From NCBI GenBank assembly GCA_017466125.1, contig JAFTUS010000084.1:1-64000 (forward strand): a stretch of 64,000 nucleotides of DNA, written 5' to 3'. Positions 26,976 to 56,294 of this stretch are shown here, piece after piece. The translations under genes and the position numbers were made by a program. The stretch comes from Lentisphaeria bacterium (lineage in GTDB: Bacteria; Verrucomicrobiota; Lentisphaeria; Victivallales; Victivallaceae). Position 1 is the first letter of the stretch. Every line of letters begins with the position of its first letter. The notes beneath the pieces are model-generated. The model saw only the letters and a program-made list of their open reading frames with translations, was not told the DNA's origin and searched no databases.

Positions 26976-27238
26976 GGCTCTGTATGAAACGTTAACTGAT
27001 TTTTATTGTGGCTTCGGTGTGCTCCGTCCGCTCAACGCCCCGATAAATACGCTGCGCTCTTTTTTCGGGGCATCGCTCCCGGCGAGCGGTATTGCCTCTG
27101 CGAGGCAATTTTGACGCTGCGCTTGTACTTTCGCCGCCATTTTAAGGCGGCGACCAGCGTTCCGCCGCTGGAGCACGTCCGGGTACGACCCGGGGCGGGG
27201 TACGCGCTGCGCGCGGATTTTTTATCTGTTTATGTTTA
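26976..27238 (+). repeat. Structured dispersed repeat, copy 1
   Basis: This G+C-rich, non-coding 263-bp element recurs in the same orientation at 48477-48742. It holds a series of hairpins: CCCCGA/TCGGGG (27038-27043 with 27065-27070), ATTGCCTC/GAGGCAAT (27091-27109), CGCCGCC/GGCGGCG (27132-27152), CCAGCG/CGCTGG (27154-27171), CCGGGT/ACCCGG (27179-27193). It ends with CGCG/CGCG followed by six Ts, like an intrinsic terminator. It lies just before the aminotransferase gene. It may be a structured RNA gene or a non-autonomous mobile element. Confidence 0.93.
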
Positions 27239-27269
27239 GTACAGTCTAAAAAAATAAGGAGAATATACC

Positions 27270-48476: not shown

Positions 48477-48742
48477 GGCTTTGTACGAAAGGTTGACTGA
48501 TTTTTACAGGGGCTTCGGAATGCTTCGTCCGCTCAACGCCCCGAAAAAATACGCTGCGCTCTTTTTTCGGAGCATCGCTCCCGGCGAGAGGTATTGCCGC
48601 GATGCGGCAATGTTGACGCTTCGCTTGTACTTTCGCCGCCATTTTAAGGCGGCGACCAGCGTTCCGCCGCTGGATCACGTCCGGGTACGACCCGGGGCGG
48701 GGTACGCGCTGCGCGCGGATTTTTTTTATCAGTCTATGTTTA
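48477..48742 (+). repeat. Structured dispersed repeat, copy 2
   Basis: This 266-bp element matches copy 1 (26976-27238) in the same orientation. It has the same hairpin series, including ATTGCCGC/GCGGCAAT (48593-48611), and the terminal hairpin with a T run. In that stem a T-A pair of copy 1 is a G-C pair here, a compensatory change. A 1-nt insertion upstream breaks any common reading frame. Its right edge abuts the stop codon of the PocR/AraC-type gene. The rest of the 48296-48739 interval shows no gene. Confidence 0.93.
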
Positions 48743-49612
48743 ATTTTTACGTCTCAAAGTCCCCGGCGGATAGCCGAAAAACTTGCGGAACATCCGGCTG
48801 AAATAGTAAACATTGGCAAAACCGGCACGCGCGGCAATCTCTTTGATCGGTTCATTGGTTTCTTTTAAAAGAGATTCAGCGTTCTTTAACCGGACATTCG
48901 TCACCTGTTCCTGAAATGAAACTCCGAGATGTGCTGTACATAAGTGACTGGCACGCGAAGGCGAAACGCCAAGATATTTTGCCAACCCCTCAAGAGAAAT
49001 ATCGCCGTTGCTGTGGCGCAAAATATATTCCCGTATCAACTCTCCGCGATTAGGCACAGAGTTTTTCTCTGTCTGATTTGCCTGAAGACGCAAAGAGTAA
49101 AACGAACTGCCGAGCAGACGGATCTCATGGATGATATCATCAAACGATTCAAGTGGAAATTCCGGCAGCAGTTCCCATGCTTTCCGCATTTCTGCCGGAG
49201 GCTCACCCCCACGGAATGGGCCGATATAGAAAATCAACTCCAATACATCGTTCCAGAGAAAAGACACGACCAGCTCTTTCACGCCCTTCCAGCAACAGTG
49301 AATAAAAGGTTCTCCGGTACGCAAACACTCTTTTTCCACACCGGCGGCACACTCCCGCAGACAAAACGAGTTATAACGCTTACGGGAGTAACGTTCATTC
49401 TGGCAATATGCGGCACGGTGATACCGCCATTGGGGAAAAAGATAAGACATATCCCGCCTGTACCAGAATCCATTCATCGCATGGATCGTCAGAAAAACAT
49501 TGTACTTTTTTTCAAACGCAGCAATGCTCCAGTCGATTTGACCGGAGATATCTATGGTTGATTTTTTATCGAAATATTCTATTTTTAGCATAATAATATA
49601 AATATACAGCAT
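48740..49612 (-). CDS. AraC-family regulator with PocR-like cysteine-rich sensor
   Basis: This 290-aa protein has a C-terminal double helix-turn-helix (ISLEGLAKYLGVSPSRASHL and IKEIAARAGFANVYYFSRMF, then FFGYPPGTLR). Its N-terminal half has several cysteines (YCQNERY, FCLRECAAGVEKECLRTG, HCCWKGVKELVVSF), which resemble a PocR-type ligand-binding domain. The start may be MLKIEYFDKK seven codons in. It is divergent from the FAD-oxidoreductase/pseudopilin/glycosidase operon at 49683, with a 70-bp gap, and likely activates it. Confidence 0.85.
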   Translation of the reverse strand: MLYIYIIMLKIEYFDKKSTIDISGQIDWSIAAFEKKYNVFLTIHAMNGFWYRRDMSYLFPQWRYHRAAYCQNERYSRKRYNSFCLRECAAGVEKECLRTGEPFIHCCWKGVKELVVSFLWNDVLELIFYIGPFRGGEPPAEMRKAWELLPEFPLESFDDIIHEIRLLGSSFYSLRLQANQTEKNSVPNRGELIREYILRHSNGDISLEGLAKYLGVSPSRASHLCTAHLGVSFQEQVTNVRLKNAESLLKETNEPIKEIAARAGFANVYYFSRMFRKFFGYPPGTLRRKN

Positions 49613-55313: not shown

Positions 55314-55320
55314 GCATCCG

Positions 55321-55351
55321 CGCGCAACGGCCGAACGCCGGGCGTTGCGCG
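55321..55351. terminator. Hairpin between convergent genes
   Basis: CGCGCAACG at 55321-55329 pairs with CGTTGCGCG at 55343-55351, 8 nt after the glycosidase stop and 20 nt before the AraC stop. It is G+C-rich with no T tail, so it may act as a bidirectional, Rho-assisted stop. Confidence 0.6.
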
Positions 55352-55370
55352 GACGGCGTATCCCGAAGGT

Positions 55371-56294
55371 TCAGTGAAAATCAGTCTGTGTTTCGTACAC
55401 AGCCTTTTGAAAATCCCGGGGGGACACTCCGTGGATTTTGCGGAAGCGTTTGCTGAAATAATTGGCATTGGAAAAACCGCAACGTTCAGAAACTTCAGCG
55501 ACTCCGACCCCTTTTTGAAGCAGTTTCGCAGCATGATTGAGCCGCAGATGCTGCAAATAATCAAAAGGAGAAGAACCGGTCATACGATTGAACAACCGTA
55601 AAAAATTCCGGGGGGAAGTGCAGGCAAGGCCCGACAGTTCTTTCAGCGACCACGGTTTGGAAAAATCCTGTTCCATCCGGCTGATGACTTCCACGATATG
55701 GGGGATACTGCGGGGACTCTGCCCCATCATATTGCCATAATTATCCGAAATCATCAGAATGATCTCCTGAAAAAGCGTCAATGCCCGCACCTCATAGCCG
55801 ACTTTTTTTTCTTTCAGAATTTTTTCCAGTTTGAAAAGCAGTTCTTCCATCGTCTCAAGCGTCTCTTCGTTCAGATGCAGACCGTAATCGTTTGAACGTT
55901 CGGCACGCAGAGAGGGTTCTGCATGAAAAAACATCCGGTAACCGGGAAGCCGTTCCAGCAGTTCATAAGGCAACGGCAGTTCCTCCGGCACAAAAAGGAC
56001 ATTCATCAGCCGCAGATTATGATATTCCGTAAAACAGTGGGCAATATCGCCGCGCAAAAGAAAAATATCCCCGCGAAACACCGGATAAGTACGACCGTTT
56101 ATCCACTGTGTTGCCGTACCGGAAAGAATAAGCACCAACTCCATAAATTCGTGAATGTGCGGGATAAAAGTCCAGTTATCCGCCCGGGAAGATGCCGATG
56201 GCTTTGCCGGTGAAAGGTACAGTTGAAGTTCCGGTGCGGGGGGCAAAAATCCCATTCTTGGAACTTGCGGATATTTTGTTTTCAAATTGTCCAT
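55371..56294 (-). CDS. AraC-family regulator with cupin sensor
   Basis: This 307-aa protein has an N-terminal cupin (WTFIPHIHEFMELVLILSGT, then FRGDIFLLRGDIAHCFTEY) and C-terminal helix-turn-helix pair (WSLKELSGLACTSPRNFLRLF; VAEVSERCGFSNANYFSKRF, ending HGVSPRDFQKA). It is divergent from the pseudopilin operon at 56551, with a 256-bp gap that carries a good promoter for that operon. It is therefore its likely activator. Confidence 0.92.
   Translation of the reverse strand: MDNLKTKYPQVPRMGFLPPAPELQLYLSPAKPSASSRADNWTFIPHIHEFMELVLILSGTATQWINGRTYPVFRGDIFLLRGDIAHCFTEYHNLRLMNVLFVPEELPLPYELLERLPGYRMFFHAEPSLRAERSNDYGLHLNEETLETMEELLFKLEKILKEKKVGYEVRALTLFQEIILMISDNYGNMMGQSPRSIPHIVEVISRMEQDFSKPWSLKELSGLACTSPRNFLRLFNRMTGSSPFDYLQHLRLNHAAKLLQKGVGVAEVSERCGFSNANYFSKRFRKIHGVSPRDFQKAVYETQTDFH

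Follow-up and report, generated by a model that had tools for sequence, protein, structure and literature searches.

REP sequences are described as single hairpins of 20 to 40 bp with a GTAG or CGTC tag (PMC3733652), and the BOX repeats of Streptococcus pneumoniae, which affect neighbouring transcripts, have been proposed to be MITEs (PMC3049150). Here we describe a repeat family of Victivallales whose best explanation, to which we assign a probability of roughly 80%, is a mosaic MITE of ~270 bp carrying a REP/BIME-like palindromic element. Two copies drew attention to the family; both lie in the window, a stretch of 64,000 nucleotides (contig C57) from the draft genome of a gut-type bacterium, 3.83 Mb in 224 contigs. 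The aminotransferase gene that adjoins copy 1 is closest to those of Victivallis and other Lentisphaeria and indicates, as far as this gene can place it, that the source genome is a Victivallaceae member or a close relative.

Family size, ends and mosaic interiors

The preliminary description had reported two very similar copies in the same orientation, and a BLAST comparison agrees, with 90% identity over the entire element (E = 3.5e-99). The alignment contains indels, and the elements are short and without coding capacity. The left end given earlier for copy 1 stands; its right end, placed at 27238, falls eight bases short of the true end at 27246 because the right inverted repeat had been cut short (Table 1). 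Copy 2 is missing the final 10 bp of its right inverted repeat, and the last bases of this truncated end provide an AraC-like gene on the minus strand (48740-49612) with its stop codon (TTA, 48740-48742). These two copies are only a small part of a large family, of which the window holds a third, remnant member. The inverted repeat of this third copy seems to encode the C-terminal ~11 residues (KAVYETQTDFH) of an AraC-like regulator (gene 55371-56294, minus strand), together with its stop codon.

Table 1. Features of the repeat copies in the window
Feature	Position	Strand	Remark
Left target-site duplication of copy 1, TATAAAAA	26968..26975	.	7/8 bases identical to 27247-27254; family rule 8 bp
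Copy 1, complete element	26976..27246	+	271 bp including both inverted repeats
Left terminal inverted repeat of copy 1, GGCTCTGTATGAAACGTTAACTGAT	26976..27000	+	3 mismatches to family consensus
Hairpin H2, stem GCCCCGATAAA / TTTTTTCGGGGC	27037..27071	+	
Hairpin H3, stem TCGCT / GGCGA	27073..27085	+	
Hairpin H4, stem ATTGCCTC / GAGGCAAT	27091..27109	+	contains compensatory pair 27097/27103
Hairpin H6 (core Pa), stem TCGCCGCC / GGCGGCGA	27131..27153	+	
Core match of covariance model R1 in copy 1	27149..27219	+	84.1 bits
Hairpin H7 (core Pb), CCAGCG TTCCGC CGCTGG	27154..27171	+	
Hairpin H8 (core Pc), CCGGGT ACG ACCCGG	27179..27193	+	strongest covariation of all stems
Hairpin H9 and T run	27203..27223	+	terminator-like
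Right terminal inverted repeat of copy 1, GACTGTACTAAACATAAACAGAT	27224..27246	-	degenerate
Right target-site duplication of copy 1, TAAAAAAA	27247..27254	.	
Copy 2	48477..48742	+	good left inverted repeat at 48477; right one truncated after ATGTTTA
Core match of R1 in copy 2	48651..48721	+	85.7 bits
Third copy, internally deleted	~55314..55404	-	left end and H9-like hairpin; no match to R1

The genome contains at least 40 copies, whole or partial (40 of 152 candidate matches scored). Their terminal inverted repeats are imperfect and ~25 bp long (consensus GGCTSTGTACKAAAnnTnGACTGAT); allowing up to three mismatches, we counted 59 left-type and 44 right-type ends, compared with 0 for the reversed control, and many family copies lack one end. 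After repeat removal, 88 entries were left among the fetched loci, and because some of these are the two halves of one element split between contigs, we estimate about 60 to 90 insertion points in this Victivallaceae draft genome. The elements span 98 to 472 bp. Among the ~25 complete elements with both flanks, 13 have an exact 8-bp target duplication and none has a duplication of 9 or 10 bp; when flanks were mispaired between different elements, exact 8-bp agreement fell to 0.53%. The elements have therefore transposed, with an 8-bp target duplication. In copy 1 the flanks TATAAAAA and TAAAAAAA form such a duplication with one mismatch. Terminal inverted repeats, target duplications, high copy number, the absence of coding capacity and the swapped and tandem internal hairpin modules described below all accord with the earlier suggestion of a non-autonomous element spread through the genome.

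Outside this genome the ends are scattered. The end sequence is present with one mismatch in 6 of 78 family genomes and, allowing up to three mismatches, in 7 of the 388 phylum genomes sampled; it was not found in the eight other species of the same genus, other genera carry up to 141 ends in one genome, and the viral contigs gave no instance of the terminal pattern. What the ends enclose also varies. In three genomes (G028, G029 and G036) the same inverted repeats surround hairpin chains without sequence kinship to the one in the window. One of these, G036, has the ends and no match to the core model R1 (see below), and ends and core are therefore independent parts, joined in some lineages (e.g., the present genome, G000, and G040, G056 and G065).

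A 70-bp block (GGCCGAACGTCGGCCTCGGTAGTGGTCGGCTGTCG...) with palindromes of its own was found 31 times in the fetched loci, in place of the core (L155, 171 bp), in addition to it (L024 and L015) or tandemly repeated (L157 and L122). Between fixed ends, this internal module is thus absent, single or repeated, a BOX-like arrangement. The interiors fold well in 10 of the 12 elements tested (z = -2.5 to -9.4), and the two outside this range are the shortest ones, L155 and L230, the latter (from G056) being the smallest element at only 98 bp.

Paired stems and a three-hairpin core

The preliminary description had singled out one compensatory change, T27097-A27103 in copy 1 against G-C in copy 2, and the wider family bears it out: of the 42 copies of alignment A1, 22 have T-A here and 20 have G-C, and in none is the pair broken. 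Over the seven stems tested, 98.0% of cells are paired, and 8 pairs show double changes (45 double-change cells, in H2, H4, H7, H8 and H9). The covariation analysis that had been proposed gave a score of 0.064 compared with 0.026 ± 0.003 for shuffled alignments (0/500) and at most 0.019 for slid ones. H6 is invariant within this genome; in relatives other sequences stand at this place and still pair. As a single strand, a copy folds well below dinucleotide shuffles on the plus strand (z = -4.8) and on the minus strand (z = -4.6). With the constant T.G pair in H3 set aside, the plus-strand mismatches of A1 comprise 21 A.C and 8 G.T. Since A.C is at least as common as G.T, plus-strand RNA is not favoured, and this genome shows no sign of selection on it.

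H6, H7 and H8 make up a three-hairpin core (signature TTTCGCC..GGCGACCAGCGTTCCGCCGCTGGAYCRCGTCCGG..CCGG) that also exists without these ends. In G008, a genome of the same genus that lacks them, we found a dispersed element with the same part order and linkers, in which the arms differ and still pair. The core elements of G008 (L168-L177) lie between genes as outward-facing pairs or clusters, forming long inverted repeats. The isolate Victivallis vadensis DSM 14823 has the core, without these inverted repeats, directly after the aminotransferase gene and on the opposite strand; a second, weaker copy (30.6 bits, L033 2049-2115) lies within the same 11 kb. We built a covariance model, R1, of 71 positions from 26 copies and ran it on 388 phylum genomes. 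Matches, mostly strong and multi-copy (up to at least 12), were obtained in two dozen genomes belonging to the same family and in nine from three further Victivallales families, and the rest of the phylum gave single weak matches only (E 4e-6 to 6e-4). From this distribution, the core is the older part, separate from the transposon that carries it.

Pairing in the core is nearly complete. Among 106 distinct copies, 98.3% of the cells in the two modelled stems pair and 168 cells carry double changes; the covariation score is 0.361, compared with 0.082 shuffled and at most 0.067 slid, in an alignment that was fitted to R1 and leans towards the model; alignment A3, made without the model, gave 0.262 compared with 0.075. 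One position of Pc shows four standard pair types, and the third stem, Pa, occurs as CGCC/GGCG, CGGC/GCCG, CGTGC/GCACG and CGTCC/GGACG. Linkers and loops (CGACC, UUCCGC and GGAYCRCG) are conserved across the order. No family of the Rfam library used here matches, and at a relaxed threshold only scores far below the gathering scores were returned. Target duplications on their own had been named in advance as speaking against a structured element; duplications are indeed present, but the covariation is real and the core exists outside the transposon ends.

The kinds of pairs bear on what these stems are. The core pairs of the aligned copies comprise 1255 Watson-Crick cells, 6 G.T and 3 A.C, and RNA stems normally accept far more G.U than this. 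Because G.U is nearly absent and there is no clear strand bias, the core stems are better read as DNA that is palindromic on both strands, kept so by selection or by strand-switching correction, than as one structured RNA gene. The palindromes would then stay near-perfect because DNA hairpins are either selected for or corrected. It is possible, although we consider it a good deal less probable than the main reading, that mutation alone makes the compensatory changes, through quasi-palindrome correction by replication strand switching together with cassette exchange, and that no structural selection is involved. The almost perfect Watson-Crick pairing on both strands fits this explanation, as do whole-arm swaps that include the flank (e.g., H8, CCGGGTACGACCCGG versus GCGGGTAGCACCCGC) and the exchange of the 70-bp module as a block; the order-wide conservation of core loops and linkers, however, is not explained by mutation bias only.

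Placement beside genes and origin of the ends

Along with conserved palindromes and mosaic exchange, we observed a bias of the elements to gene 3' ends. In this genome the gene on the T-run side is convergent, with its 3' end towards the element, in 36 of 44 cases (p = 2.5e-5), and the other side meets a gene end in 20 of 34 (p = 0.39); the two sides differ from each other with only p = 0.04, and the genes behind these orientation counts were called by ORF length only and are approximate. Elsewhere, the core lies antisense and abutting gene 3' ends, often no more than 30 bp from the stop codon, in the genera g1, g7 and g15, and sense, often 17 to 60 bp past the stop, in G025, G071, G077, G387 and G390. 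The elements are high-copy, extragenic and downstream of genes, which is REP-type placement. Copy 1 is an exception to the 3'-end trend: it sits between divergent genes just before the start of the aminotransferase gene, and the aminotransferase upstream regions inspected in relatives contain no such element.

The G+C hairpin and T run that had been likened to an intrinsic terminator are present at 27203-27223, but the stem in copy 1 has just 5 bp, and by chance alone the scan would yield 0.9 sites of this kind in the region. Taking position together with this weak terminator scan, the element probably acts as a 3'-end or terminator element. A hairpin chain with a T run could end transcripts, block read-through and protect the mRNA of the neighbouring gene, and insertions beside gene 3' ends may persist because the chain can serve as a transcript end. 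A transcribed role as a 3'-UTR or terminator hairpin is possible. In a rival reading, which we regard as tentative, with odds well below even, the chain is a cis-acting RNA: it would be transcribed with the adjacent gene as its 3' UTR and either block 3' exonucleases or bind a protein. It would account for the close, orientation-biased placement at gene 3' ends, and the mismatches in this genome, with A.C in excess, slightly favour the minus strand. Both orientations occur, however, so that two complementary RNAs would need to do the same job, and wobble pairs are far rarer than is usual in RNA stems.

Under the main reading, a mosaic MITE with REP/BIME-like cargo, a DDE-type transposase recognising the ends would move the MITE in trans, and the cargo is an older, separate three-hairpin repeat of Victivallales that behaves like REP/BIME. 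A more specific version, which we find rather unlikely, is that the core represents a new order-wide palindromic class with a dedicated protein, as in REP/RAYT, that a TIR-type transposon system has captured in several family lineages and thereby disperses as a domesticated 3'-end element.

Neither this genome nor its relatives yielded an autonomous element bounded by these ends, and the search of 388 phylum genomes for an isolated one returned MITE-like copies or remnants only. Draft assemblies break at repeats, and this absence is weak evidence because multi-copy IS are easily lost from them. ISL3, IS1595 and IS6 would each be compatible with AT-rich target duplications of 8 bp and an end resembling GGCTCTGT. 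That the elements are MITEs of the ISL3 or IS1595 family is nevertheless unlikely. An ISL3 transposase does lie directly beside such an end in G065, but it has an end of its own, GCCTCTTCACCAGAATTTGTGGGC, different from the GGCTSTGTACTAAA... ends, and its 3' end across relatives is this different IS end; as we interpret the junction, this ISL3 jumped into a MITE. The ISL3 of the present genome has yet another end and was rejected as the source of the inverted repeats, and IS1595 was rejected as a partner, the elements of this kind in the order having other ends or none recognisable. PF12762 is missing from G000, G028, G029, G036, G056 and G060. The ISL3-family transposase with the GCCTCTTCACCAGAATTTGTGGGC end (L239-L268) is at least 93% identical across genera and families of the order; it appears to be an IS that has spread recently and interrupts many assemblies. 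In G029, a tandem array of ~50-bp units (AGGATTGCCTTCACTGCGTTCAGGCTTCCT...) lies beside an ISL3 remnant (L235 1760-2090).

The weakest reading, which we consider very unlikely, is the structured RNA gene that the preliminary description had offered as its other option, here a family of trans-acting small RNAs of ~250 nt ending at the T run: the strong covariation, the conserved linkers and loops and the T run after a GC hairpin speak for it. Against it, the dozens of copies lie at many unrelated loci and are bounded by transposon ends and target duplications. Almost all pairs are Watson-Crick with almost no G.U, and on the plus strand G.T is not in excess of A.C in this genome. Measured against shuffles, the two strands fold to about the same degree; the left end of copy 1 yielded no promoter-like site, and Rfam gives no match.

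Comparison with described repeat families

With the mosaic MITE described here, Victivallales gain a REP/BIME-like repeat family of their own that is absent from Rfam. More than 100 diverse copies provide material for testing structure, positional bias and mobility, and the repeats help to explain the frequent breaks in these draft genomes. The family also illustrates that strong compensatory changes can mean palindromic DNA and not automatically an RNA gene; scarce G.U and the lack of strand bias are the discriminator. Our search of the open literature turned up no description of repeats like these from Victivallis or Lentisphaerae, and neither name is mentioned in the text of PMC3733652.

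The family resembles REP/BIME and REPINs (PMC3733652, PMC3116915, PMC2817692) in consisting of high-copy extragenic palindromes with compensated stems and mosaic structure, which lie mainly downstream of genes and in the gaps of tandem or convergent gene pairs and form pairs or clusters whose orientation varies. Unlike REP, the Victivallales core is ~60 nt long with three hairpins, and in several genomes it sits inside terminal inverted repeats with 8-bp target duplications. We considered and rejected membership in the GTAG/CGTC REP class: CGTC precedes H8 in many copies, but it is followed by CCGG with no CCA tail, and size and structure differ.

Like BOX (PMC3049150), the family is modular and non-coding, combining end modules with an internal module that varies in tandem number; unlike BOX, its core exists on its own across the order and exact 8-bp duplications are seen. 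The likeness is one of modular build. SPRITE of S. pneumoniae (PMC3049150) is likewise an interspersed terminator-like hairpin repeat, but one 18-bp duplex is described there, compared with a chain of about seven hairpins here. The MITEs Correia/NEMIS, ERIC, Nezha and RUP (PMC3733652; reviewed in PMC10969869) share a length of 70 to 300 bp, terminal inverted repeats, target duplications, a lack of coding capacity, strong secondary structure and a frequent position beside genes; here, in contrast to them, one and the same set of ends surrounds unrelated hairpin chains from genus to genus. The family is real and well supported, and as a MITE with a REP/BIME-like interior it is an unusual combination of known kinds.
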